Source: Cryoendolithus antarcticus (lineage: Eukaryota > Ascomycota > Dothideomycetes > Cladosporiales > Cladosporiaceae). Taken from it: 64,000 nucleotides of DNA. Location of the stretch: assembly GCA_002077065.1 (NCBI GenBank), contig NAJO01000018.1, positions 1 through 64,000 of the forward strand, in the 5' to 3' direction. Below the pieces are notes generated by a model. The model ran no database searches, was not told the DNA's origin, and worked only from the letters and a program-made list of their open reading frames with translations. Below, piece after piece: positions 3,831 to 55,529 of this stretch; within the stretch, counting starts at the first letter, position 1; every line of letters begins with the position of its first letter. The translations under genes were made by a program, and so were the position numbers.

Positions 3831-4693
3831 TCATTTGAAGTCGTTCGCGCTTCCACTCAACAGTAGCCCGATGATCAGGCCAAACAGCCCCAGTACTGAC
3901 GAGAAAATCTCAATGACCAAGATCTTCACGAATCTGTCCTCACGTCAGCTCCACTGTCCCCAATGCACCCCTTCATCGCTCGTGCTCCCTGATAGACGAT
4001 GTACTCACAGACTAGGATCCGCGGCATCTGCTAGGGCGGCACTACTTCCGTTGATCCCCACGCTCACACCGCAAATCAGATTGCACATTCCCACCAACAC
4101 GCCACTCCAGAACAGCGCGTAGCCAGTGTAGTAATTGCTCCCCGAGTATCCCGCATCTCCCCCTACTTGGCTGAGCTTGGAGCTGAAGACGATGCTCATG
4201 ATGACGCCGTAGATTGCAACGACCTCGCAGAAGATGATGGAGATGAGGTTCTTGGTGCGGATTCGAGGGGCTTTGACGCCACCACCTATGATCGAGGAGC
4301 CGGTTATGAAGATGCCCCTGCATCTCATGGTAAGTGTCCATTCAACCAAGATGCGGTTCTGGGATTGAGGCATACCATGCTGCGCCGACGACGGAGAAGC
4401 CGATGCACATTGCTATGCCGGTGGAGGCCCAGGCGTAGGGGGATATGGATTCGATGAAGGCGCCGACCTGAGAAATCATCCGTCAGCAAAGCTCTTGCTT
4501 CATTTTCCTCGGCCTCAATATATCGCAGTGCCTTGCTTACGTTGAACGCCTCTCCTTCGCCATTGAACAGCATATCTATCCACGTCCATTAGCCCAGCCC
4601 ATCTCGTCCACGCTCTTTGCTTCTCGACGTACACAGTCCCACAATGAGAAGCGCAGTGCCGGCGCCATAGCTGCCGTATGCGAGACCGCCCAT
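3831..4693 (-). CDS. VMA16: V-type H+-ATPase proteolipid subunit c'' , five exons
   Basis: Membrane-embedded proteolipid of the V0 ring that carries protons across the vacuolar/endosomal membrane. Exons: 4633-4693, 4541-4575, 4376-4467, 4009-4317, 3831-3933; total 199 residues (yeast Vma16 is 213). Every junction was checked for frame: donors GTACGT, GTAAGC, GTATGC, GTGAGT, all with AG acceptors. Several hydrophobic helices are visible: the N-terminal [13 protein letters not shown], then [24 protein letters not shown], then the [13 protein letters not shown] helix holding the proton-binding glutamate, then [17 protein letters not shown], and a last helix [19 protein letters not shown]. The WGIFITGSS and [10 protein letters not shown] loops are family hallmarks. 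The first helix is shorter at the N-terminus than in yeast. Divergent from TOA2. Confidence 0.93.
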
Positions 4694-39722: not shown

Positions 39723-40691
39723 GCTGCGCCATGGCGTAGGGGAGAGTGCATATAGGAGAAGGTCGAGTACGCTTGACTACAGGAAAGCAATTGTCAAATG
39801 TTCAGCACGCCACACTCATCAGACGATGGCAGCGATGCCAGCTACTACTCTCTAACCCATCATATGCCCAGCGCAGTGTACGCAGTCCAGCATGGTGATA
39901 ACTACGCACATCGTGCGCGCAAAGCAAAAAGCCATACACATAGCCAAAGAACGACAAAAAGCGTCATACACCTCATCAACCACCCCCATCCGTTCCCGCC
40001 AAAGACGTGAGTAATCCAACGCCGCCACTCCATGGCCTGCAACTCTCTGCCCGATTGCTCGGCTGAAGTTTATTGCAGCAGCTCAAGGCCGTGCGCAACA
40101 ATCGCTCGTTACCGAAGCGAGTGGACGGCCACCACAGAGTTCGAACTGGACACACGCCCTTGGGATTGTGAAGGGAAGGTGGGGGCGAGAGGAAATTCCG
40201 CCCGTTGAGCCATTACAGCTTGGCTCCTGGCGGGAATACTGTACTTTATGTTCTAAGACCAAAGTGTTTCACCATGCTCCGACTGCTTCCGAGGTCGTGA
40301 TACTAGACCGCCATCTTTCTCAACATCTACATTCATTGCCGGACGGCACAAACATCTGCCACGTGATTTGAACAGTAGGTCTGGGGCTGTTGGTCTACCC
40401 GTGTGCTAATGCGAGGAGTTCGCGCCGTAGGTTGGTGTGTGGTAGTTCAATCTCCTTTGTTCACTCTCAACCATATCAAGCATAAACTTGTCACTTCTAC
40501 CATGTCTGAATCCCCTTTGTCTTCCCATCACCACGTCCACACAATGGTGCTGCTTCCGTCGACCTCCGTCGCCACGAACAAAGAAATCACAGAGAAATGG
40601 CAGCATCAAATCATCTACGCCTTCGCTGGCAGGCATGTACACATCTGTGCCAATTCAAAGGCATCATACGCGCACAGAACTGTCAGCGAAG
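39723..40691. other. Intergenic with a possible upstream ORF
   Basis: 0.97 kb. No independent gene supported. An ATG at 40502 opens an 85-codon frame ending at 40759 that overlaps the start of the next gene in another frame; it may act as an upstream ORF if transcription starts that far upstream. Confidence 0.4.
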
Positions 40692-42578
40692 ATGGCCATC
40701 CCTTTCGGCGAGCCTGGCTCGGCGACCACGGACTCCACGATCGACAACATCTACGATAGCTATGATGTGCCCAGAACGCCCGGCCTACAGCGGGAGCATG
40801 AGCCGGAAAATCGCCGTGAGCTGCAAGACTTCGCCTCATGGGAAGCCGAAAGACTGGCATCCGCGACGCGCAGGGAGCAGTTGATGGCTGGTTTTGATTA
40901 CGAAGCAGAGATAAAGAAGGCAGCGCAAGGTCGAGCACGCGCGATAGCCAGAGGCATGGCCGTCCGGGACATTGGAACGCCGCCGATATCTGATGATGAT
41001 AAGAGTGGCTCAGAAGCTGACAGTAGCACGCCGCGCGCACGTGCGGAGACTGGTTCTCGACATGGACGAGTTGACAGCGACGTGGAGGCAGTGACGTTCC
41101 TGAACCCACCTGGCACGCCGAGAACGATCATGATGAACATCGAAGTCAAGCTTCGGCTACTGCCTGCCGTGCACCTCTTGACGAAGGCTAGTCAGACTAG
41201 ACATGATCGGAACGAGGCGATACGCATCGCAGCAGAGACTCGGGCATTTGTTACTAGATGCAAAGGCACCACGGCACTGGAGGCACGCTGTCAATACTAT
41301 ATCGCGATCGCTCACAACGATGATCCGAAGATCCCGAACAATGACAGAGCAAGACGACACTATGAGCTTGCACGTGAAGCCACACTTGGTGGATACCCAG
41401 AGGGCCGATGGGCTGGTCAGTGGCTAAACCACTGGGAATGCCTGAATGACCAGCGGTCTCCTACTGCCAAGATTGCCAGCTGGGCTTACAGTACCGCGGC
41501 TAGTGTTATTGAATACGTACGGGGCAGTCCCACGACGCCGAGTAAGCCGAATCGTGGCGACTCAGAAGACGACCCATTTGGTCGTGACCGCCGGTCGCTT
41601 ACGGACATGAGCCCGATCGAAGGTCGCGGCGAGCGCATCCCAAGCTTCAGCACCTGGCGATCTTCCGATGCAGGTTCGCCACAAGCTGCTTCCCCCGAAG
41701 CAGGCATCTTTCCCTCCCGCCATCCCACAAGAGACTCTTGGTCCCTCAAAGGCGGCAAACGTGTTGCCGTACAAGGCGCCTTCCAACCCTCCTTCAACAG
41801 CGGCAACGAAGCCCTCTCTCCGACGCAAAATCGCTTAGACAACGGCAACCCACTTTCAGCAAGTAGCACAAAATCTCACTTCGGTCTTGCCTGGTCCAAG
41901 CACGACCCCTACGGTAAAGGCGAGATCATCCCCGGCAAGACCTTCGACTCAATCTCCAGCCCCGAGAACATCTTCTCAGAATCCGAACGAGACATCCCGC
42001 ATAACGTCCTTGGCGGGCTCGTAGATGTCACTCGACTGAGCGCCAAGAAGACAGAGATGAGAGGCTGCGAATGGGAGGCCCGACGCCGCTCCTACGTTCC
42101 CAAGGGCGTCTCGTCACCGCGGAAAGTCTACGTCATGCAGAATATGCTGACCGGCCACTACTCCCCATTATCTGATCTCAGCCATGGCTCCGACTCGAGC
42201 ATACCTGTCAGTCCTGCATCTCCCAGACGCCCCGCATGCTTCGGCCAACGCGCATCTTATACCGGCGCCGAACCTTCTGCCCCAATCACTGTCAGTGACT
42301 CCTCTTCTCTGTACCCCTACAAAGCCAGTGTCGTCAGCCACGAGAAGTCCGCTGTTACTGGTCGATCTGGTAGTGACAGCCCCAGGAAGCGCAGAATGGG
42401 GAGTCTGAGCGTTATCGCTACGGGGCTGGACTTGGCTGGCGTGCTACCGCATAGGCGGAGGAGTGAAATGGCTGCGCCGGAGCAGAAGCTGGAGGAGGGG
42501 GAGAGTCCATTCAGTCCGAAGAAGGGCGAGGGAGGGTTCTACGTGACGGAGGAGGGCATCATCGAGGAGGAGGTGTGA
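40692..42578 (+). CDS. Conserved-looking hypothetical protein, unknown function
   Basis: Single exon of 628 residues from the ATG at 40692 (context GCGAAGATGG); the frame is open upstream to 40488 but with no better start. I do not recognise the family. Visible: N-terminal DSYDVPRTPGLQREHEPENRRE region; a helical part at about residues 145-265 (KLRLLPAVHLLTKASQTRHD, RNEAIRIAAETRAFVTRCKG, ARRHYELAREATLGGYPEGR, WAGQWLNHWECLND), which may be a small TPR-like bundle; then 350 Ser/Pro-rich residues with many SP/TP sites (possible kinase targets) and basic clusters (PRKRRMG, PHRRRSE). No transmembrane segment or signal peptide. Codon use looks like its neighbours. The helical part and long uninterrupted frame support a real gene. 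Confidence 0.75.
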   Translation: MAIPFGEPGSATTDSTIDNIYDSYDVPRTPGLQREHEPENRRELQDFASWEAERLASATRREQLMAGFDYEAEIKKAAQGRARAIARGMAVRDIGTPPISDDDKSGSEADSSTPRARAETGSRHGRVDSDVEAVTFLNPPGTPRTIMMNIEVKLRLLPAVHLLTKASQTRHDRNEAIRIAAETRAFVTRCKGTTALEARCQYYIAIAHNDDPKIPNNDRARRHYELAREATLGGYPEGRWAGQWLNHWECLNDQRSPTAKIASWAYSTAASVIEYVRGSPTTPSKPNRGDSEDDPFGRDRRSLTDMSPIEGRGERIPSFSTWRSSDAGSPQAASPEAGIFPSRHPTRDSWSLKGGKRVAVQGAFQPSFNSGNEALSPTQNRLDNGNPLSASSTKSHFGLAWSKHDPYGKGEIIPGKTFDSISSPENIFSESERDIPHNVLGGLVDVTRLSAKKTEMRGCEWEARRRSYVPKGVSSPRKVYVMQNMLTGHYSPLSDLSHGSDSSIPVSPASPRRPACFGQRASYTGAEPSAPITVSDSSSLYPYKASVVSHEKSAVTGRSGSDSPRKRRMGSLSVIATGLDLAGVLPHRRRSEMAAPEQKLEEGESPFSPKKGEGGFYVTEEGIIEEEV

Positions 42579-42828
42579 GCCAGCTTCAAGCGATGTGAGA
42601 TCGAAGGTGATGGTTGAGATAGGAAAGAATATGTGTATCTGTGTAGCAACTTCAATACCATCTGTCTGCTTTACAGCCACCAGTCTATCTATACCGTGCT
42701 TTTGTCCGCCGTTCCGCCAGTATCCACACTCTGCCACGTTCCCGATCCGATTAGTCGACTCGATTGAAACGCCGTTCCTATGCATTCTTGCCCTGACCTT
42801 TGCTCACTTTCGTGCGTGGAACACCCTC

Positions 42829-45800
42829 CTAAGGCGCCATGACGAGAGCAAGCAGCGCCATGCGCACGAACATGCCATACCTCATCTGTCGCCAAGTCAG
42901 TACATCATCCAAAACACTCCATGCGTCACTCATCACGCCGCTACTCACCTGTCTGAAGTACGCCGCTCTCGGATCATCATCAACCTCCTCGCTCAGCTCC
43001 AAATTCCTCGGCAGCGGGTGCATAACGATCATGTTCGCTTTCGCATCCTTCAGCGTCTTGCCATCAACAACAAAGGTGTCCTTCACCTCCTCGTACAAGC
43101 TCGGGTCTTCGAAGCGCTCTTTTTGCAGGCGTGTGACATAGAGGACATCAGTCTTGGCAATCATCTCGGGCGTCAGGCGGTCGGACTCGATGGCAAGCTG
43201 ACCGCGGCTTTGCATTGAAGCGCGGACTTTCGACGGGATGGAAAGAGCGGCTGGAGATGCGAGCTGGATTTGCACGTTATAGTGACGGAGGAGCTCAACG
43301 AGGGAGTGCACTGTGCGGCCATACTTGAGGTCACCGACGAAGGTGATCGTCAACCCGTTGACTGTTCCGAGCTCCTCGCGCATGGTGAAGAGATCCAGAA
43401 GACCTTGCGTTGGGTGCTCGCGGGAGCCGTTGCCAGCATTGATGATGGGTCCATGCGCAGCCTTCGCAGCACGCCCAGCACTGTCGTTGTCCGGATGACG
43501 AAGTACGATAGCATCGCCATACTGATCGAGCGTGCGAATCGTGTCGGCCAAACTCTCACCCTTCTGCGTACTAGAGTGAGCCTCATTGATCATCAGAGTC
43601 TGCCCGCCAAGTCTCTTTATTGCCGCATCGAAGGACGAAGACGTGCGAGTGGAGGGCTCGAAGAACATCAAGCACAGCACTCGTCCTTTGAGTGTGTCTA
43701 AACAACCGTCCCGCTCAACACCAAGGCGCATCTCTGCCGCAACCGTGAAGAGAAGATGCAGCTCTTCCTTAGAGAACTGCTTCACGGAAATGACGTCTTT
43801 GCCCTTGAATGGTGAGCTTTTCAGCAACTCGGTGAGCGTAGGAAGCACTTCGGGCTTCGGTGGTGACAGTGGAATAGTTGGTACTTCGGCGAAAGTCTGA
43901 CAGTCGATCCGCCCGATACTGAGGTCGTAGTGCTGGGCAATGGCTTCGATGAGGATTTTGGCATTCTTGACGTTGGTGACGAGTGGCGTCTGGTAGTCGA
44001 CCGCCATGCGACGGGTACGGTACCCTTTGCTCATGTAGTTTGCGGGACGACGGAAGCGGTTGGATGAGGGGAGGTTGATGTATAAGTCGATGAGGTTGTT
44101 GGCGAGGGCGTGGGTCAGCGAGTATTCGTTGCGCTGCTGATCATCCTGAAGCGCCTCGAGGAACTGCACTTCGATCTCGTGCTCAGCTAGAAAGTCAGCT
44201 GTGCCTGCCGTGGCGAAGAGCTTGTAGCCTAGCTTGTAAAGCTTCTTGATGGACTCCAGCATCTCCAGCTTGTCCTTATAAGCTCCGATCGAGAAAAGAA
44301 TGTTCTTCTTCGGCAGCTTGAACCCTGTTGCTATCAGACCCTTGAGGTACGCTTCGTACTTGTTCCGCCCGAAACAAGCCACCTCGCCAGTGGAAGCCAT
44401 CTCGACACCCATGACTGGATCTGCGCCAGAGAGTCGCGAGAAGGAGAATTGGGGGACCTTGACACCAACGTAGTCAGGCGGAATGTTCAGAGGCGGGTAC
44501 TCTTGTAGCGGTAAGCCGGCCATCGCCTTCGTCGCAAGCGCAATCATGTCCACGCCCATGACTTTCGAGACGAATGGGAAGGACCGAGATGCTCGAACAT
44601 TGCACTCGATAACCTTAATCTCGTTGTCCTTTGCGATGAACTGAATGTTGTAGGGTCCGGTAACGTTAAGCGCGTCCCCAATTTTCCGGGTTGCATCCTC
44701 GATTCTGCGAACAGTCTCTGGGTCTAGATCCTGGGGTGGTAGGATCAGTGTAGCATCTCCCGAGTGAACGCCGGCATTCTCGACGTGCTCGGAGATGAAG
44801 TGTCCGATCATGATACCGTTGCGAGCCACAGCATCCATCTCGATCTCCTTGGCCCCCTCGATGTACTTCGTGATCACCACTGGGTGGTCCTTCGACACAT
44901 CGGCAGCCTGGTTGAGATACATGCGTAGATCGTGCTCGGAGTATACAGTATTCATCGCCGCTCCTGAGAGCACATAAGATGGCCTGACCAACACAGGGTA
45001 CTTGACCTTGTTGCAGAAGATCTTCGCCTCTTCAATGCTAGTCAGCTCCTTCCACTGCGGTTGATCGACACCCAGTCGGTCCAGCATGCGAGAGAACTTG
45101 TACCGGTTCTCTGCAGTGTCGATCATCTCTGGTGAGGTGCCAAGAATCTTGACATTGGAGCGGTGAAGAGGGAGGGAAATGTTGTTCGGTGTCTGACCAC
45201 CCATTGAGAGGATCACACCGCTGGAGCGTTCGAGGTGATAGATGTCAAGTACTGTCTCGAGGGTGATATTTTCGAAGTACAGTCGATCGGCCTCATCGTA
45301 ATCTGTGGATACTGTCTCGGGCCGTAAGTGTGTCAGCAAAGCATTGATGATTAGCTGGTAAGTGACCCGGTCAATATGCAGTGGTGGTATGTTAGTAGGG
45401 GCTTCAAGCGCTGGCGATGCTGGCTGCCAGAGCAGCGACGGCTTTCGGATGGCGTTCATTCTTGAGGTGGCGGTTCCAGTTACTCTTGGTCGAGTAGCTG
45501 AGCTTGCATGCTGCACAGTAGCGTTTAGGGTTCTTTTGCGTAGCCTTTCGCCTGTGCTTTGGTGAGGCGAGATGGTCATCGAGTACATTCTGGCGGGGGT
45601 AGGAGATGTCGCAGACAGCACAGTAGTATAGCATATCATCGCGAGCTTTGTCTTCACGAAGCTTCTGGAGGACCATGTCGTGTCCAGGCTTGGCTGCACG
45701 ACGCTGCTTAACGCCTTCGTGGCGCTTCTCCTTGTGCTTGCGCTCCTTTTCCTCCAGCTCGTCGAATGTGAGGCCGAAGTCACCGAGAATTGGGTCCCAG

Positions 45801-48800
45801 AAGGCAGGATGGGAGCAGAGACTATTATACTCCAGAGACTGCCTTCCCCAGGGACAAATATGACCCATTTCATAGTCAGACGCCATCGTACGCATGGTCC
45901 AGAACACGTAGCTGAAGGTGCCCTCCAACGCATACATGAGGAGACGGCGTATGGTTGGTTGCCAGCTGATGGTAGAGGGATCCAACAGAGCATACGCTTG
46001 GTTGTGAGGACATAGCCGTTGTTGATGGCCTCTGCGACCAGAGAAGAGTAGTCGGCGCCGTCATCATCACGCCCGAAGCGTTGGTGCACGCCTTTGTGCT
46101 TGTCGGTCGCGACACCAGTGTATACCTTTGGACGACGTCAAGGCTTCTCCAATAGCAGCTTATACACAGCAAACTTGTACGAGTCCCTGTTGCGTAGTTT
46201 TGGGAGACATTTGACCCGATCAATTCCTGGAGGATCTTCGCCCTCGAGAATCTCTAAAACTCCTGGTGCAAACTCGAGTCCAGCAGCCTCAGCAATGTCT
46301 CCCAAGACAGTTCTACTTGTAATGAATTGGTCGAAGAGGTCGTTCTTTGCGTATGTTGGTGTCTCGACAAGACACTGCCAGACGATGTCCAGTGCCTTCG
46401 ACACCACAGGCGGAATCATGGCTGAGATGTGACCAGACAAATCTCAGACAACTCCACCCTGATCGTGACCTAAGAGAACGCAGGACACATTGTGTCCTTA
46501 GGTGTTCGCCACACCATGGTCCCTAAATAGGCAGCATCCGCCAAGCATTCGTCGCGTCCACCATGTCCTGTAGTCCAGAGGAAGTCGCGCCTCGGAAGCC
46601 CCACACCGACACACCACACACCACACCTTGGGGGATGGAAGCACTTACATTGTAGTTGACCATCACAGTCTTGTACCCACTGTCCCTCAGAGTGCGCACA
46701 GCTCTCACCGAGCACCAGTCGAACTCGACGGAGCTTCCAATGCGGTAGACACCGCTTCCGAGCACCATGACACCTCTGTCGTCGAAGCTGATGTCATGCT
46801 CCGTCCCGTTGTAAGTCAAGTACAAGTAGTTAGTATACGCAGGGAACTCCGCGGCCACAGTATCGATCTGCTTCACAAATGGCGTAATACCAGCGTCCAG
46901 TCGTGCACGTCGGACGTGCTTCTCATTGCTGCTCCAAAAGTTCGCCAGCTGCTTATCGGAGAAGCCCTTCTCCTTCGCAGTGCGGAACAAGCTAGACGTG
47001 ATGTTGTCGATTTTGTAGGTGGACATGTGCTTGCTGAAGTCGCTGAGACCCTTGAGACGACTCAAGAACCACTTGTCGATCTTCGTCATCTGCCAGATCT
47101 TCTCCACGGAGTAGCCGTTACTCATGGCGTTTGCGAGAGCGAACATGCGCTGGTCGGAGGGAGTCTGCAGCTCGGTGTCGATGTCGATTGACATGAGCGC
47201 CTCAGTCTCATTGAACCCCAAGTTGCTGGGATCGACAGCTCGAATGGCTTTCTGAATCGCTTCCTCGAAAGTCCTGCCGATGCTCATCACTTCGCCTACG
47301 CTCTTCATGGAAGAGCCGAGAAGCGTGGAAACTCGAGTGAACTTCTTCAGATCCCAGCGAGGGATCTTGACGACCACGTAGTCGAGCGAGGGTTCGAAGC
47401 AGGCGCATGTCACTTTGGTGACTGTGTTCTTGATCTCATTCAGCGGGATGTTGAGGCCGAGCTTGGCTGCGATGAACGCCAGTGGATAACCCGTAGCCTT
47501 TGACGCGAGTGCAGACGAACGCGAAAGACGAGCGTTGACTTCGATGATGCAGTACTCCCGGCTATCAGGATTGAGTGCATACTGGATGTTGCACTCTCCG
47601 ACGACGCCGAGATGTCTGATCACCCGTGTCGCCGTGGTGCGTAGCATGTTGTAGTCCTCATCAGACAGCGTCTGCGACGGCGCAACCACGATCGAGTCTC
47701 CGGTATGAATGCCAAGCGGATCGAAGTTCTCCATGTTGCATACAGTGATGCAATTATCCTGAGCATCACGAACGACCTCGTACTCGACCTCCTTCCAGCC
47801 CTTCATACTACGCTCAATCAATATCTGCGGACTGGCTGCGAATGCCTTATTGCACAGATCGACGAGCTGCTCCTTGTTGTCTGCGAAGCCGCTTCCAAGA
47901 CCACCAAGAGCGTATGCTGCGCGAATGATGACAGGGTAGCCGATGGTCTCCACGGCCTCGAGCGCTTCCTCAAGGTTGTTGGCTGACTTCGACTTTGCGC
48001 AAGGCGCACCAATCGACTCCATGCTCCTGGCGAATAGCTCACGATCCTCGGTAGTGATGATGGTGTCAATCGGAGTACCGAGCACCTTCACACCCAATTC
48101 CTCGAACTCATCTTTGAGCTTGATGCCGACTGACAGTGCCGTCTGACCACCAAACGTGCAGTAGATGGCATCCGGCCGCTCAAGCTTGATGACCTTGCGT
48201 ACAAAGTCTGCGTTGACCGGGAGGAAATAGACCTTGTCTGCTAAGCCTTTCGATGTCTGAATCGTCGCGATGTTCGGATTGATCAAGATGGTGTAGATGC
48301 CTTCTTCCTTGAGAGCCTTGATTGCCTGGCTACCGGAGTAATCGAACTCGCCGGCTTGACCGATGCTGAGGCCACCGCTACCGAGGACCAAGACTTTCTT
48401 GACATTGACTCTGGGCTTCGCAGCTGCATTTGCGGCAGCGTCGCCTCCAGGGAACTTGACGGGCGTCTGCATCTTGCTTGAGTCTTTGATGACGTCTGTG
48501 ATGGTGCTGATGAAGACATCGAACAAGAACTCGGTGTCCCGTGGACCAGGCGCACTCTCTGGATGGAACTGCACACTGAAGTATGGACGATCCTTGTGCC
48601 TGATACCTTCATTGCTGTGATCGTTTGCGTTGACGAAGAGCTCGCTCCAGTCATTTGGCAGAGTATCCGCGTCCACAGCGAACCCGTGGTTTTGAGAGGT
48701 GATGTAGCACTTGCCAGAGAGCAGATTTGTGCAAGGAATGTTATGACCTCTGTTACCGAACTTCATCTTGAGTGTGTCTGCGCCAGCAGCTCGTGCAAGT

Positions 48801-49868
48801 AACTGATGCCCAAGACAGATGCCGAAGATAGGTATCCGAGCCTCGTCCATCGCAGTGCGGATGTGCTCGACAGTGTCCTTCATCAAGGCAGGGTCGCCTG
48901 GTCCATTGGAGATGAAGAGACCATCGTACTCCTTCCCAGCCAGCTTCGGAAAATCGTAGTCCCAGGGCACGACTTCGACCTCGACGCCGCGCTTCACGAG
49001 GCAGCGAAGCTGGTTGTACTTGAGACCGACATCAACACACACAACACGCACGGGTCTACCTGACGGATGATGCAACGCAGTGGACGCATCGGGGGAGTAA
49101 ACCTTTGGTTTCGATGTAGAGACTATTGACCATGATCAGACGTGATCTGCTATGTGGTACGGCTGTAGCGTGCTCACCATCAGCCACCAAGTTTCTGATA
49201 TTCGGATTGTACCAGTCGATCTCCTCAAACACTGGCACATCCTTTGTCTTGTTGCCAAAGTAGCCATTTGACCCGTTGGGTGCCACTAGGCCATTGGCGT
49301 GACCGTTCTGTACAGCAGGTGTCGCGGAGCCTGTAGGCGTTGCTGCGCCACTTGGTGTTACAGCACCATTGAGTGCTAGCATCTTCCTCGTGCCGGTCTG
49401 CTTGAGCAAGCGCCCTAGCATACTTCCCTGCTCTCGGATCCTCTTGGTCAGTGCCCGAGTGTCGACGCCGTATACTGCGGGCACATTCTGCTCTTTCAGC
49501 CATGTCCCTAGTGATGAGGTAGCGAGATGATGTGAGTACTCCTCGCCAGAGTATGACGCTACAATGAGACCAGCAATGTGGATTTCTGCTGCCTCAAAGT
49601 GAGCTGGAAGATCCTTAAGGATCGCGTCTCTGTCCTCCCTTGAGGGAACGCCATAGTTGCCGATGAGAGGGAATGTGATAACCAAGATTTGGCCACGATA
49701 TGAAGGGTCAGTGATGGACTCTGGGTAGCCGACCATGCCAGTCTGAAAGACCAGCTCGCCAGCGACGCTGCGGTCAGCACCGAAGCTCGTTCCCTCGCAG
49801 AAGCGGACAGCTCGATCGCCGTCTTGCACCTCGAGAGCCATGAGGCTCGATTGCTGTGCTGTGGCCAT
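42829..49868 (-). CDS. URA2: URA2: GATase-CPSase-ATCase, interrupted by a 1.33-kb ORF-bearing intron
   Basis: Makes carbamoyl phosphate from glutamine and bicarbonate, then carbamoyl aspartate: the first two steps of pyrimidine synthesis. Exons 49178-49868, 46649-49122, about 45321-42949, 42829-42885; roughly 1864 residues. Intron 1 is 49123-49177 (GTGAGC, AATAG); intron 3 is 42886-42948 (GTGAGT, GACAG, in frame). The GATase shows [15 protein letters not shown]. CPSase half 1 shows [20 protein letters not shown] and [10 protein letters not shown]. Half 2 is split after VMVNYN (residue 1055) by the insertion 45322-46648 and resumes [21 protein letters not shown]. The ATCase shows [14 protein letters not shown] and [16 protein letters not shown]. 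The inactive dihydroorotase-like domain usual in fungal URA2 (about 340 residues plus linker) is absent: the CPSase end runs through some 48 residues straight into ATCase. The exact acceptor of intron 2 is unresolved. Confidence 0.92.
45404..46419 (-). pseudogene. Decayed GIY-YIG-like/C2H2 zinc-finger protein gene inside the URA2 intron
   Basis: Reading begins at ATG 46419 ([17 protein letters not shown]) and runs 93 codons to an in-frame TGA at 46138-46140; the same frame then continues ([43 protein letters not shown]). Around 45950-45962 the sense shifts by one base into the frame that reads [37 protein letters not shown], then two zinc fingers (CAVC and CAAC, each C-x2-C-x12-H-x5-H), ending at the stop 45404-45406. 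The AVYKLL...VYTG pair with a following arginine is reminiscent of GIY-YIG nucleases. From memory, intact proteins with this order of segments occur in other Dothideomycetes. One nonsense codon and one frameshift make it a pseudogene here, unless the sequence has errors. Confidence 0.65.
46468..46503. repeat. Imperfect palindrome in the URA2 intron
   Basis: ACCTAAG and GGACACA on the left mirror TGTGTCC and TTAGGT on the right, with one central T. The left arm has an 8-base insertion (46475-46482), so the 36 bp fold into a 7-bp inner stem and an outer stem. It lies just upstream of the element's ORF start. Confidence 0.6.
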
Positions 49869-50560
49869 TATGTGCTGCGTTCTGCTATGGCCAGCATTGA
49901 GTGTTCAAATTAGTTCATGGTGAATATATGGAGTCAAAGATCAACCGACGAGCTCGAGAAATTTATTAGCAAAGCCGATCGTGCATGATCGCCCGCTAGT
50001 CCCCGCAGACACAGGGGTCCGCAGTGCCCCCCTGTACGCGTCTTTTGCACTACATTGCGCGGTGGTGAATATGCTGTACATAGTGGGAAAACCCGGTGAA
50101 CATATACGGTGAAGACACATCGTGGAAATGGAGAGCTTCTCGATCGCAGGCACTAGTTGACGTAGTACACAGAGGGTACGGTCCAGCCATCATATTTGCA
50201 GAGTCTCGGTTGCAGCCTCGCCGAGGCGCTGTAGCCGCTCGCCAGGGTTCGCACAATGCCCAACAAGCCCATGGTCAAGATGCGGTCCCAGAATCGCGCT
50301 TCTCGCAGTTTCTCCTATCTGAGTACGCTCTCGGGCTCAACATGCACTGTACTTTCGAGTCTACCGTAGACGTTGACTTACCCAGCTAAGCAATCAGCAG
50401 GTTCGGATATGGCTTCACTACTTGTCCAGACTGTGCTACATGCATCTACATGGCTCCAGATCATAAGTGTCGCTCATTCACTTTACCTCATAGTACAAGC
50501 CATGCAGGCTCTTCTTCAGTCTGCATCCTCTTTGCACTCCTATCCATATCGCTTTTCGCA
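49869..50560. other. Intergenic, URA2 promoter side
   Basis: 0.69 kb upstream of URA2. No gene supported; no recognisable Ppr1-type or other binding site. Confidence 0.45.
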
Positions 50561-51660
50561 ATGTCTAATGCAAACCCATCGAACGACACACTTCGTTTAG
50601 CTCTACAATCTTCGCCGGAAAAGTATAACACTGATGTCCATCGTGACTTCACTGAGGCGGCAGCTTTGGGTGTCATCAGTCCAGTCATAGCTCTGCAGCA
50701 GCAAATTGGTAACAGGGCTGACGCCATGGCCAATTTCTCGTGAATGGGTCGCCAAGATCATGCTCACGTTCAACGCTCGCATGCCCTCGCCAGCGATGCC
50801 GAAGGATTGGGCAATCAAGCTTCAGCCTGAATGGAACCAGTGGTAGACTACTCACGCCGAGAGGATCGGAGCCATGTTGTCTCATCATCAACAACCAGAT
50901 CTTTTACAAGCCAGAGCTACGATCCTGTTCCATGATATGATTGAAACCCACGGCGTTACGGCTGACGTTCGCGCAGGTGTACACCGTAGTGGCGTGCGGT
51001 TTCCCCTGATCTGTCACTCAGTTGCGTCGGCCGACTTCAGGAGATCATCCAGGCAATGGAGACCCTTGCACATGTCAGACATGATGTGATTATGGGTAAG
51101 GCTATACCGGAGCTGATCGCAGATCCGCGTCGTTACCTAGCTACGAAGATCTCCCAGAGGTAGGTAGTCGGTAAGAACGTGTTCCGGAGTTATTGCAAGG
51201 CGCGTCTTGGAGCTGATCCGAGCTCAGGTGGGACATCGAGGTGGCCAAAGAGAAGCACTCTCACTTACGGAAGAAACGATCGCCTCCACGCGTCAGAGGC
51301 CGAAAGGCGAATGCTGGCCAAACTTGGGATGCACGTGGTAAGAGTGCCGGTGACCAGCCTGAATCCAACCAGCAGCCGCAGAGCGCAGTTGGGCCACTGC
51401 CTTCTGTTTCCTTGTTCAGCTCGGGCACATCGACCCCTGGCGGACGGCATGCCATATTACGTCAAAAAGCCACGACCTCAGGGTTAGGCGTCGCGCAAGG
51501 CCAGCATGAACTTCCCAGTTCGGCGTCCGAGACCACGCTACCCGCTTCAGACGGTCAAGGAGACTCGGACGATAGCGGGGTCGGGGCTGATTTGCGCACG
51601 TTCAAGCAAATGTGTGATCGCGGTGGGTCTCCCCAGGAGGACGGTGAAGGGCGAGATTGA
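50561..51660 (+). pseudogene. Decayed ORF of an unidentified protein
   Basis: Protein-like sequence is spread over all three plus frames in register, as expected for a gene broken by several small indels. Frame 2 reads from ATG 50561 (MSNANPSNDTLRLALQSSPE ... DFTEAAALGVISPVIALQQQ) to TGA at 50741-50743. Frame 3 takes over at 50739 (REWVAKIMLTFNARMPSPAM ... LQPEWNQW), hits TAG at 50844, and goes on with ILFHDMIETHGVTADVRAG. Frame 2 returns at about 51020 (GRLQEIIQAMETLAHVRHDV, KAIPELIADPRRYLATKI), hits TAG at 51161 and continues (GKNVFRSYCKARLGADP). Frame 1 carries a basic, Gln/Ser-rich end (51241-51660). I do not recognise the protein. Unannotated introns could explain one or two of the switches, but not all of them. 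Confidence 0.45.
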
Positions 51661-52333
51661 CGAAGGCAAGGAAAATGAGAATGGAGAAAAGATGTGTCGG
51701 AGAGCGATGATGAGACGCGCGAGTAAGACTGAACAGACCTGAACAGGGTACTTGGGAGACACTGTACTGAGGTGGTAGACAAGCATAATGGCGAAAGGAC
51801 AGCATGGTTGTAAAAGAATGTTTCATATCTGTGAATCAAGATACGTGACGCCGCCTGTGATCTTCGTGAAGCGAATTTGTAGACTGGGCGTATTATGTGA
51901 GATCCGCTTGTCAACAGCGCATGCAGTGAGGAGATGTGGAATCAGAGATGAGGTTCAACCCAAACTGTCGGGTGGTGGGCTGCTCTCGCACGTCATCGGC
52001 TTTGTCTCAATCGGAGTGCACCTTACGAAGCACAGTGGCGAGGACACTCAACACCACACAAGTATTCCGTATCATATCTAGCATCGCAAGCAATCAAGGT
52101 GAATACCCTGTTTCGTGTCATACCCAGCACAGCCTTCGTCGCAGCAACACTACCCAAAGTGGCCCCATTCCGCCCTAGCCGAGGGTCCCCCGAGGCGTCG
52201 GGCCTTAGAAATCAACCATCATTGGCATATCTTATGCAATCAAGCAACGAAGCATCCAGTCCATCGGCGCAGCATCATTCTTCTTGCCTTCCGAACCTCA
52301 TTTCTACATATACCCCTCTTCGCCTCTACTTGA
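51661..52333. other. Intergenic, 0.67 kb
   Basis: Promoter side of the thioredoxin gene. Only short frames without protein character. Confidence 0.45.
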
Positions 52334-52939
52334 ATGTCCGCACGCACAATCGTCACAAGAGCAGCACTCACCAGTATTCGCATTAGACCGACCACCGCAT
52401 CAGCCAGCTTCATCAACACTACATATTCGAGTCGCATCGCGCAACCAGCTATCACACAGAACATCTCAAGCAACCGCTTCTTCTCCGCCACAATGGGTAA
52501 AGAGGGTGTCCACAACCTTGGCTCGTAAGTCTCTTGCTTGTACTCGTCCATGAGACGGTGGACTAACAACATCTTCAGTAAAGCCGACTTTGACTCCGCC
52601 CTCAGCGAGCCAGGTCTGATGGTCCTAGATTGCTTCGCAACCTGGTGTGGTCCTTGCAAGGTCATCGCGCCTCAAGTCGTCAAGTCATTATCGCCCCCAT
52701 CGATCCTTCCGCTCACCATGCGTTCATACTGACACATTCTACATAGGTTCTCAAACACCTACACCGACACCCGCTTCTATAAGCTCGACGTCGACGAGAT
52801 CCCCGACGTCGCGCAGGAGCTCTCCGTCCGCGCCATGCCCACCTTCATCATCTTCAAAGACGGCCAGAAAGTCGGCGAAGTCGTTGGTGCCAACCCGACA
52901 GCCCTCGAGGCTGCGATCAAGCAAAACGTCGCTGCGTAG
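52334..52939 (+). CDS. Thioredoxin with mitochondrial-type leader, three exons
   Basis: Protein disulfide reductase. Exons 52334-52524, 52579-52683, 52747-52939; 162 residues. Introns: GTAAGT and GTCATT donors, CTAAC and CTGAC branch sites, CAG and TAG acceptors. The redox site is [15 protein letters not shown], with the cis-proline in [15 protein letters not shown]. The first 53 residues ([19 protein letters not shown] ... NRFFSAT) are rich in Arg/Ser/Thr with no acids, a mitochondrial presequence. An internal ATG at 52493 ([11 protein letters not shown]) would give a 109-residue protein of the standard cytosolic length, so two products from one gene are plausible. Firm family call; localisation inferred. 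Confidence 0.92.
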
Positions 52940-53499
52940 AGTGGGGCGAAGTATATCAATACTGCTCTGAATCTTAAGCACGTCGCTGTGGGGAAGTACT
53001 GTATGAGAAGGGTGCCAGCGCTGAAGAAAGCTGAGTCTAGAACATCAGAGGCGAGGGAAGCGAAGGTGTGTGAAGAGCATGCTATATGTAGAGCGGTGGG
53101 ACATAGTGGTAGACAGAAGTGAATACACAACATGTGATCTTTAGACGCGATGATACCAACAGCCGTTCCTATTCTGCTACTCGTGCGCCACGTGGATCCT
53201 AACGTGGCACTACGGCAACACTGGCTGGGCTAGTAAGCCATTGGCGGATGTTTACATGCAGTGATTTCCGGGACGTCACAGCTGCGCTACAACTTGACCC
53301 GCACTCACTTGACTCTACTCCTGAAGCAGTATCCAAATCGTTCTTTCCAGCCCCATGCGACGCCAGCTCAAAACCACCCTTTGCCGCGAGAGGACCAAGT
53401 TAAAGCAGTAAAGTGGTATCTTGTGAAAGGCAAGCACTGCAGTATTACACTCGGGCCATTCATATTTCTCAACCCATCGCCCTCACCTGCGCCTCCCGA
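52940..53499. other. Intergenic between convergent genes, 0.56 kb
   Basis: Thioredoxin 3' side and 3' side of the Bqt4-like gene. No gene seen. Confidence 0.5.
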
Positions 53500-54972
53500 C
53501 TACGACCAAGGAAACGCCGTCATCAGGCTGGGAATCAGTGTTCTGTAATACCATTAGTAAGTGTTCTCGTGATGCAGTTGCGCGGTCAACGTACCCGAAT
53601 GCAAGTCCAGCAATTATACCAGTCAACGCTCTTCGCCTGATCTTCTCCTTCCTCAACTCAACATGCACAGCCTTGGCACGCTTCGGCGCCTCCTCAACAT
53701 CCTCATCGTCATCCTCCTCCATCTCCTCAGCCTTTCTCTTGCCCTTCCCGCTTGAGACTTCACCAGCCTTATCAACCATGTCACGCGCCATAACAAGCAT
53801 CTCCTGCGGGTCGCTGGGGAGCTTCATTTCCGGGTATCCGACCGGCAACTCGACGTTAACGCGAGTGCTTTCGAGTTCTTCGTCTGGATCGTCGGGCGAA
53901 GTTTGCGTCGTCTTCTCGACCTCCACCTTGACCGTGTCGCGCGAAGAAGTCGGGCGGGATGGAATATCTCCGTTCACGCTGTGGGCTTCAGAGTCCGCTA
54001 CCGACGCGCCGTCCTCGTCCACTTTGCTCAATCCGCCGCGACCCTTGCGTGCTTTTCTGGGTGTGGCGATTTTGCGTGCTGGTGTTTTTGAAGGCGATGC
54101 AGAGCGGATACTGCGCGAGCCGCGCGTTGAGCGCCTTCCTGTATCCAGTTTGTCTGGCGAGCGGCCTAAGCCGTTGACAGTATCGCCTTTGAAGCGGAAG
54201 GCGGGTGGGGATTTGATGGCTTTCTTGGGGTCCGAGGTGCCGTGGGTGATGGGTTCGGGGTCTAGGAGTGCGGCGACCCAGAGCTTGATGCCGTATTCTT
54301 CGCCGAGGGAGAGTGCTGTAATACGTGTGTTAGCACGAGCTAGCAGTTGTTGAGGGAAAGAAGGGAAGGCAGGAGCGACTGACCTTGATTCGGGTGGATC
54401 CACACGTTCCCCGCTACCTCCTCGCTGCTTGACTCCGGCAGTCCCTTGACGAAGTCCTTCTCTGCGAGCTCCTCGTCCGTTGAAGCGTAGGGGAATGCAG
54501 CCTTAAACATGCCCGTGGCGCTAACATAGCCATCTGAAGACCGCCTCTGTCGTATCACCTGTCAGTCCTCGATCCATTTCCCCTGCGCTGATTTCCAACG
54601 TACCATCAAGAAATACGCATCCGGGTACTTTCTATTACTCCCCTTCGCAAATATGCCACTCGAGCTCAGATCGCTCGGCAGTGGCACGCGGAGATGCGCA
54701 TAGTCCAGCACGCCGAGATTGTCGGGTTTGGTCGCATTGCTAGTGTTCACCTGACCGGGCTTGACTTTGAGCTCCGTTTGCCCAAGGCAGCGGCGCTCGA
54801 CGAGGATCTCATCTGTATTGCGATGTCTGTATTAGTGAGCTGTATGTAGGTTTGCGCGAAGCTGCAGTGCGCCGCGGCGCGCAGAGATGGGGGACGTACG
54901 GTTTGGCGCGCGCTCTTCGATGAGCATAGGATTCTTGTCCTCCGGCAGAGGGACGCGACGAGTATCTGCCAT
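53500..54972 (-). CDS. APSES/KilA-N domain protein, Bqt4-like inner nuclear membrane protein, five exons
   Basis: Exons 54900-54972, 54604-54812, 54384-54546, 53595-54315, 53500-53542; 402 residues. Donors GTACGT (three times), GTCAGT; all frames join exactly. The APSES-type DNA-binding fold lies at about residues 45-150: [65 protein letters not shown] charged middle with [18 protein letters not shown] follows, then an acidic stretch ([13 protein letters not shown]). The last exons form a C-terminal membrane helix ([15 protein letters not shown], then [10 protein letters not shown]), so the protein is tail-anchored. This arrangement matches S. pombe Bqt4, which ties telomeres to the nuclear envelope, rather than soluble APSES regulators such as StuA. 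The membrane helix appears only after splicing the last 52-bp intron. Confidence 0.82.
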
Positions 54973-55529
54973 TGCGCTGTAGATATATGCGCGACCGTAT
55001 AGTAGTGCTCTAGTCGAATGCGCGAAGTGTCGCGACGGCTTCCTCGGCGCAAGCTGTGGCTGATTCAGACTCGACGCGATACGACGCGATTCACCACTCT
55101 CTCTTCCTCAAGTATATGAACGACGCAAGAAGTGAATTACTACTGCATGTGATACGATATGATAGTGAAGAAACGTGTGAAGTCAGATAGAGACAAGGAT
55201 GCGATGCGATCGAAGAAGCTTGGGGACGGGAATCTCCCAGGGCGCTCTGAAGTGTGGAGGCGGGCAGGGGAAGATGCGTGGCTGGAGAGGATCGATGCGC
55301 TAGAAAGTCGTCACGTCAATGGCAATTTCTCGTTTCGTCACGCGCAGAGTGCGTGCTGATGATCGCGATTCATGGAGATGAGATGAGATGATGGGACGTG
55401 TCCTTGGGACCATTTTGGCGTTAGGGTAAATCTATCATCTATTCGTGTGCGTGCGACGACTCATAAGAGTGCGCATCATGTCCTGTCCTCGTGGGCGAGG
55501 CGGGTAGAACCCTCCAATGGTAGAGGCAT
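54973..55529. other. Intergenic, 0.56 kb
   Basis: Between two minus-strand genes. A 66-codon plus frame (55159-55359) is not protein-like. No gene seen. Confidence 0.5.

Follow-up and report, generated by a model that had tools for sequence, protein, structure and literature searches.

URA2 of Cryoendolithus antarcticus (Ascomycota; Dothideomycetes) is interrupted by a 1327-nt intron with a decayed gene of its own, and this insert is very probably the relic of a nuclear mobile spliceosomal intron that carried the gene of a site-specific GIY-YIG endonuclease with zinc fingers in its tail. The locus lies on contig NAJO01000018.1 (assembly GCA_002077065.1), of which positions 1 to 64,000 were analysed. 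This whole stretch of 64,000 nucleotides is called the window, and positions given without a locus name refer to it. The computed basis of the reading consists of the intron position, a family of related copies, the predicted fold of relatives, element-free homeologs (the diverged second copies of the host genes), relatives specific to the same host genes in other fungi, and a patch of diverged exon next to the insertion. The features of the locus are listed below, where ORF stands for open reading frame and HEG for homing endonuclease gene.

46649 to 49135, minus strand: 5′ part of the URA2 ORF by domain scan (GATase, first half of CPSase and start of its second half; ends in VMVNYN)
42829 to 45321, minus strand: 3′ part of the URA2 ORF by domain scan (rest of CPSase, ATCase; starts with PETVSTD)
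45322 to 46648, minus strand: HEG-bearing intron between NYN and PETVSTD, 1327 nt
46643 to 46648, minus strand: GTAAGT donor of the URA2 intron
45322 to 45324, minus strand: CGG in place of the 3′ splice-site AG, just before CCC (TEF1 and the URA2 homeolog have AG)
45355 to 45357, minus strand: alternative CAG acceptor of the URA2 intron on our reading, with TACTAAC upstream
45404 to 46419, minus strand: decayed ORF of the GIY-YIG/C2H2 family in the URA2 intron (ATG at 46417-46419)
45923 to 46164, minus strand: GIY-YIG-like core of that ORF
45452 to 45622, minus strand: two C2H2 zinc fingers of the zf-met type (about 45551-45622 and 45452-45517)

The last base of URA2 exon 1 is 46649, the donor starts at 46648 and exon 2 starts at 45321, all read on the minus strand. 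These exon ends place the intron at 45322-46648 and confirm the split (NYN, GTAAGT, PETVSTD, 1327 bp) proposed in a preliminary description of the locus made from its letters; the base triplet before CCC at the 3′ end is CGG, not AG. The insertion site is unbroken in human CPS1 and in E. coli CarB, where NPETVSTD is identical. If the CAG at 45355-45357 were used as the acceptor, URA2 would gain 11 extra in-frame residues. An Rfam scan of window positions 40000-55000 at gathering thresholds, which covers the URA2 intron, gives only Fungi_SRP and no group I or group II intron family.

The ORF within the intron is on the same strand as its host and carries two lesions, an in-frame TGA (46138-46140) and a frameshift near 45925-45979. 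With these two lesions and a 3′ AG changed to GG, the URA2 copy is a relic. The residues of the core are retained nevertheless: the Tyr of (A)VY (46162-46164), the Tyr of YTG (46120-46122), an Arg (46078-46080) and a Glu (45923-45925). Pfam recognises both C2H2 fingers as zf-met (E 2.9e-12), so that the remnant ORF and the two fingers of the preliminary description both stand. A homolog search with the broken protein alone, among 4370 candidates, gives none at E 0.01.

The catalytic set of GIY-YIG enzymes is Tyr/Tyr/Arg/Glu. In AlphaFold models of two relatives of the family, the best structural match is the catalytic domain of I-TevI, with a moderate Z score. Both models have a β-β-α-α-β-α core. 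In the first model, two strands (88-97 and 104-110) are followed by two helices (116-126 and 129-140), a third strand (144-154) and a last helix (158-180); the second has the same order, which we take, partly from the I-TevI alignment, to be that of GIY-YIG domains. Y92, Y106, R120 and E172 are invariant in 21 related proteins, while in the nine copies of Cryoendolithus the Arg and Glu are invariant and both Tyr columns vary. Eight of the best 12 of 50 matches of the first model in BFVD are named as homing, GIY-YIG or intron endonucleases, three are nameless and one is a replication protein; for the second model, three matches named in this way stand on top, followed by a mixture. None of the 255 BFVD matches of the first model and none of the 56 of the second is at E 0.001 or better. 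A Foldseek search of the PDB with the first model in full gives no GIY-YIG chain among the best 40 matches listed, and the best 60 of 253 matches in a PDB profile search are zinc-finger and related proteins, with no GIY-YIG entry. Based on the I-TevI fold match and the invariant Tyr, Tyr, Arg and Glu of the relatives, the family is predicted to encode a homing-type endonuclease. The GIY-YIG segment of the preliminary description is thus upheld by the predicted structures of two relatives but not by the Pfam model (PF01541), whose two matches in the genome both lie away from the family copies.

The family has at least nine members in the Cryoendolithus antarcticus genome, including the URA2 copy, with pairwise identities of 23-46%; this lower bound comes from a six-frame search of 47 Mb in 149 contigs. 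Seven of the nine copies are intronic, all in the sense of the host and all at conserved motifs of host genes. The hosts are URA2, PYC (pyruvate carboxylase), CHC1 (clathrin heavy chain), TEF1 (EF-1alpha), HSP70, PCK1 (PEP carboxykinase) and ATP2 (ATP synthase beta). Host families were assigned by a scan (PYC, EF-1alpha, DnaK/HSP70, PCK and AtpD) and, for clathrin, by a separate one; some scores are below the curated cut-off because a single exon was scanned. The TEF1 copy, on contig C68, is contained in the NCBI protein B0A48_11363 of this species. No interrupted gene was seen around the two remaining, free-standing copies: of the 10 flanking ORFs scanned, eight have no Pfam match and the other two are a RabGAP and an alcohol dehydrogenase. 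An in-frame stop (S*M) falls at one and the same alignment column in both free-standing copies (L028 near 4435 and L030 near 5218), and the ATP2 copy too is interrupted by a stop in this region. Upstream of the HSP70-intron ORF is another, partial remnant of the family (L034, about 4037-4207; E 2e-10), which suggests repeated insertion or duplication.

Judged from the sequence, the introns of CHC1, HSP70, PCK1 and ATP2 have canonical GT-AG ends and their removal restores the reading frame, and those of URA2 (GG) and PYC (CG) are without a 3′ AG at the expected intron end. The TEF1 insertion (L033) has a 59-nt internal GT-AG intron which splits the outer donor after its first G. Once this internal intron is removed, the donor reads GTAAGC, and splicing of the outer intron would join TAC TA to T GTC. 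The TEF1 insert reads as a putative [D1,2] stwintron, a layout described in PMC12403724, and would be canonical on that reading. A broken TEF1 donor, with a junction between AG and GT that leaves an in-frame stop, was considered and rejected, since the stwintron layout accounts for the donor.

All seven host genes are present as diverged homeolog pairs (for example on C13/C46 and C60/C2), as would be expected if the genome were hybrid or duplicated. The endonuclease gene is missing from all seven homeologs, each HEG intron being found in one copy only. The TEF1, HSP70, PCK1 and CHC1 homeologs (4/7) have continuous coding sequence over the insertion point, with no intron. The other three have plain introns: one of 79 nt at the identical position in PYC, one of 56 nt a single base upstream of the insertion site in URA2 (C2), and one of 53 nt four bases downstream in ATP2, an intron that the HEG-bearing ATP2 copy does not have. 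A PDB query for ATP2 gives no match at a strict cut-off. These element-free sites are homeologs in the same genome, not population alleles, and we infer which of the two states, intron-bearing or intronless, is the older. No target-site duplication was seen by eye when the TEF1, HSP70 and CHC1 junctions were compared with their homeologs; the PCK1 junction has an ambiguous GGT.

The exon just downstream of the insertions is unusually diverged. Pooled identity to the homeologs stays at 90-93% as far as the insertion. It falls to 76.0% (175 sites) over the first 25 bases downstream, then rises to 82.6% over the following 25 and 87.4% over the following 50, and reaches 89-91% further on; these values count all bases, coding or not, and bins 1-50 of PCK1 include ordinary-intron bases. 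In codons, 26 of the 47 in the first eight downstream positions differ from the homeolog, compared with 14/56 upstream and 67/265 further downstream (P 9e-5), the eight-codon window having been picked after the bins were seen. The divergence is mostly synonymous, with one amino-acid change counted within those 47 codons. PCK1 supplies five codons because an ordinary intron follows, and PYC was cut to two by a rule on amino-acid mismatches, which leaves its divergent residues outside the codon test; six of the first eight PYC downstream codons differ. Without CHC1, the counts are 20/39 and 49/201 (P 0.0016). The patch is uneven, with 2/8 codons differing in TEF1, 4/8 in HSP70 and 6/8 in both CHC1 and ATP2, and with 4/8 in URA2 compared with 25/64 further on. 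As a control, the codons after ordinary introns differ at 0/8 (TEF1) and 1/8 (PCK1). The divergence appears as it would after co-conversion. In yeast mitochondria, exonic variation is raised beside mobile introns, and PMC5378118 discusses whether its source is error-prone repair or co-conversion from a donor outside the population.

Relatives in other fungi follow the host gene. The Cryoendolithus TEF1 copy (Ca_TEF1) falls within a 22-row clade with support of 100/99 in the second of two trees, which has 36 rows and leaves out P0004 (the same as Ca_TEF1), P0024-P0028 and P0034 (fragments or partial); the first tree leaves out P0004 and P0024-P0028 for the same reasons. The known hosts in this clade are TEF1 in three of three rows (Cryoendolithus, Septoria linicola P0031 and P0029), near the DAPGHRDF motif, where the hosts of P0031 and P0029 are read from public gene models and not from DNA. 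The PCK1 copies of Cryoendolithus and Rachicladosporium, 94% identical, are a sister pair (100/100) with PCK1 as host in both. Where the host is known, relationship tracks the host gene, a pattern that homing predicts and transposition to new sites does not. In the public gene models P0004, P0031 and P0002, host exons (elongation factor 1-alpha, PEP carboxykinase) are fused with the endonuclease, and such introns may therefore hide behind odd annotations.

A 13-bp palindrome, TTGACCNGGTCAA, recurs in the family and has two near-copies in the URA2 intron.

45362 to 45374, minus strand: 3′ copy of the palindrome, one mismatch, located 40 nt short of the URA2 intron's 3′ end
46211 to 46223, minus strand: second near-copy, one mismatch, inside the URA2-intron ORF

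Each of the seven introns contains it, and together they have 14 copies with no mismatch or one (chance about 0.025 under a model of equal base frequencies). In the whole genome it has 15 exact matches, compared with one for the reversed control, and a 15-mer with one mismatch allowed has 19, again compared with one. Six of the 15 exact matches are in family introns, one is in an aconitase intron and eight could not be tied to the family. Two of these eight lie inside a long open frame common to the related loci L044 and L050. Three further palindrome places that were read (L051-L053) have no family link. The distance from the last copy to the 3′ splice site is 46 nt in CHC1 and 42 nt in TEF1, and 210-1232 nt in the other four introns. 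One copy lies 1 nt upstream of an ATG in both TEF1 and PCK1, and 3 nt upstream of an ATG in PYC; the other copies are after or inside the ORF. Around the free-standing copies, with up to two mismatches, there is none but one two-mismatch match about 3.5 kb off in L028. It is a guess that the enzyme's own zinc fingers bind the palindrome. The aconitase gene (L043, about 1494-1547; C74 near 223782) has a 54-nt intron between TTDHIS and MAG with a lone exact palindrome, TTGACCGGGTCAA; this is perhaps a homing intron that lost its gene.

In the proposed mechanism, the enzyme would cut an intron-lacking allele at a conserved coding motif, and repair from the intron-bearing allele would copy the intron, the endonuclease gene and a short exon stretch into the cut allele. 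The spliceosome would remove the insert, so that the essential host gene still works. The URA2 copy would have decayed afterwards, through the stop, the frameshift and the change of the 3′ AG to GG. On balance, the evidence leans slightly towards a broader claim, that a lineage of nuclear selfish elements in Dothideomycetes uses homing to create entire spliceosomal introns de novo in essential genes: an intronless conserved motif is cut, repair installs the intron, the endonuclease gene and a synonymous 3′ exon patch, and the element spreads between fungal orders. The patch may also shield the site from re-cutting. The preliminary description had already read the insert as a mobile intron or its relic, sitting at a conserved coding motif, and had looked to empty sites and fungal relatives for its support. 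The fold match, the interruption of such motifs by seven of the nine copies, the empty same-genome homeologs of all seven intron-borne copies and the relatives in the same host genes (TEF1, PCK1) of other Dothideomycetes bear it out. It is qualified by the state of the URA2 copy, itself a relic, the two of nine copies that are free-standing (C84, C24), and the failure of PF01541 to recognise any of the nine.

The nearest rival is a sub-variant which overlaps with homing: the endonuclease gene invaded spliceosomal introns that already existed, and the intron lies outside the mobile unit. The plain introns at or near the same place in the PYC, URA2 and ATP2 homeologs agree with this, and homeologs could have lost introns. 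However, the TEF1, HSP70, PCK1 and CHC1 homeologs have none there, the ATP2 HEG copy is without the neighbouring ordinary intron, and the diverged 3′ exon patches suggest conversion of the whole intron; the sub-variant is unlikely, though it keeps an appreciable share of the probability. Transposition, in which an intron-forming element (introner or DNA transposon) captured the ORF and spreads to new sites, is improbable. The palindrome in all seven introns could be the end of such an element, and fungal introner-like elements are known (PMC4457414). Yet the identity of 23-46% among the copies found gives no sign of a recent burst, relatedness is closest between copies that share a host gene across genera, and no target-site duplication was seen by eye at the three junctions examined. 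This route was rejected, less firmly than the two that follow.

Nested genes do occur, and the two free-standing copies with no interrupted gene around them would suit ordinary zinc-finger genes that came to lie in introns by chance. This was rejected as very improbable, because seven of nine copies are in introns of deeply conserved genes, all seven run in the direction of the host, relatives in other genera share the host gene, and the predicted fold is GIY-YIG-like. Duplicated genomes can mislead assemblers, but nothing was found in favour of a false join of unrelated loci in the assembly. The inserts occur at seven separate places, the flanks of the homeologs run on at both sides, and records of Septoria linicola and Rachicladosporium independently show the same kind of fusion; the probability of such an artefact is negligible, and it too was rejected.

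Elsewhere in the window, a fungal SRP RNA gene lies on the minus strand at 40000-40221 (Rfam RF01502, 88.5 bits), with its 3′ end beyond the searched stretch.

The origin of new spliceosomal introns is a long-standing open question. Here introns with their own nuclease gene occupy sites where the other homeolog of the same genome is empty, which makes intron gain by homing directly testable. If the broader claim is true, these elements would act as a naturally occurring gene drive that depends on the spliceosome, and cellular genomes would gain introns directly through them. The family also matters for the use of TEF1 as a barcode gene in fungi, and explains unusual gene models, for example one named ‘elongation factor 1-alpha’ whose start is an endonuclease.

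Each of the known systems shares only some of these features. Fungal nuclear inteins and the HEG-bearing group I introns of nuclear rDNA are homing elements at conserved motifs of essential genes; inteins are removed by protein splicing and rDNA group I introns by a ribozyme, neither by the spliceosome. The GIY-YIG HEGs of group I introns (the I-TevI type and fungal mitochondrial HEGs) resemble the present family in the predicted catalytic fold, in the Tyr, Tyr, Arg and Glu invariant in its relatives, in intron residence and in conserved host sites. Unlike the group I elements, the present family has an intron that looks spliceosomal, nuclear protein-coding hosts and a C2H2 tail. Fungal introner-like elements and [D1,2] stwintrons are likewise new spliceosomal introns in fungi, and the TEF1 insert has the [D1,2] layout; to our knowledge, neither carries a nuclease gene. 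The spread of the endonuclease introns, unlike that of introner-like elements, appears tied to target genes. In Ustilago maydis a GIY-YIG gene occurs in a nuclear gene (PMC7593156); unlike the present family, that case is described as one chance transfer from mitochondria which truncates the gene, and not as a spliced family.

Among the papers listed by searches of open-access literature, without preprints and with few subscription papers, no report of homing endonucleases in fungal spliceosomal introns was seen, and the term ‘shintron’ was found only in PMC12768974 and one unrelated paper. For nuclear protein genes with such introns, which the preliminary description called hardly described, no fungal report was thus found within that scope; the phenomenon itself was described in mirusviruses in 2025. 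In the section of PMC12768974 concerned, these ‘shintrons’ are spliceosomal homing introns, and the authors regard the association as unobserved until then. A scan of viral contigs with the single protein P0010 gave no match. The fungal family is like the mirusvirus shintrons in its predicted GIY-YIG genes (HNH and others also in the virus), tied to particular conserved genes; the viral genes lie in GT-AG spliceosomal introns, and the fungal introns read as GT-AG in four copies and, as a stwintron, in TEF1. It has the shintron features that were tested, save the 3′ splice sites of two copies, and on this basis we read it as a putative family of spliceosomal homing introns in cellular housekeeping genes. 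Its presence in TEF1, URA2, ATP synthase, HSP70 and other genes would extend such introns to cellular genomes. Unlike the viral elements, it sits in housekeeping genes of a cell, carries C2H2 fingers and a recurrent palindrome, and has element-free homeologs in the same genome together with a diverged 3′ exon patch.

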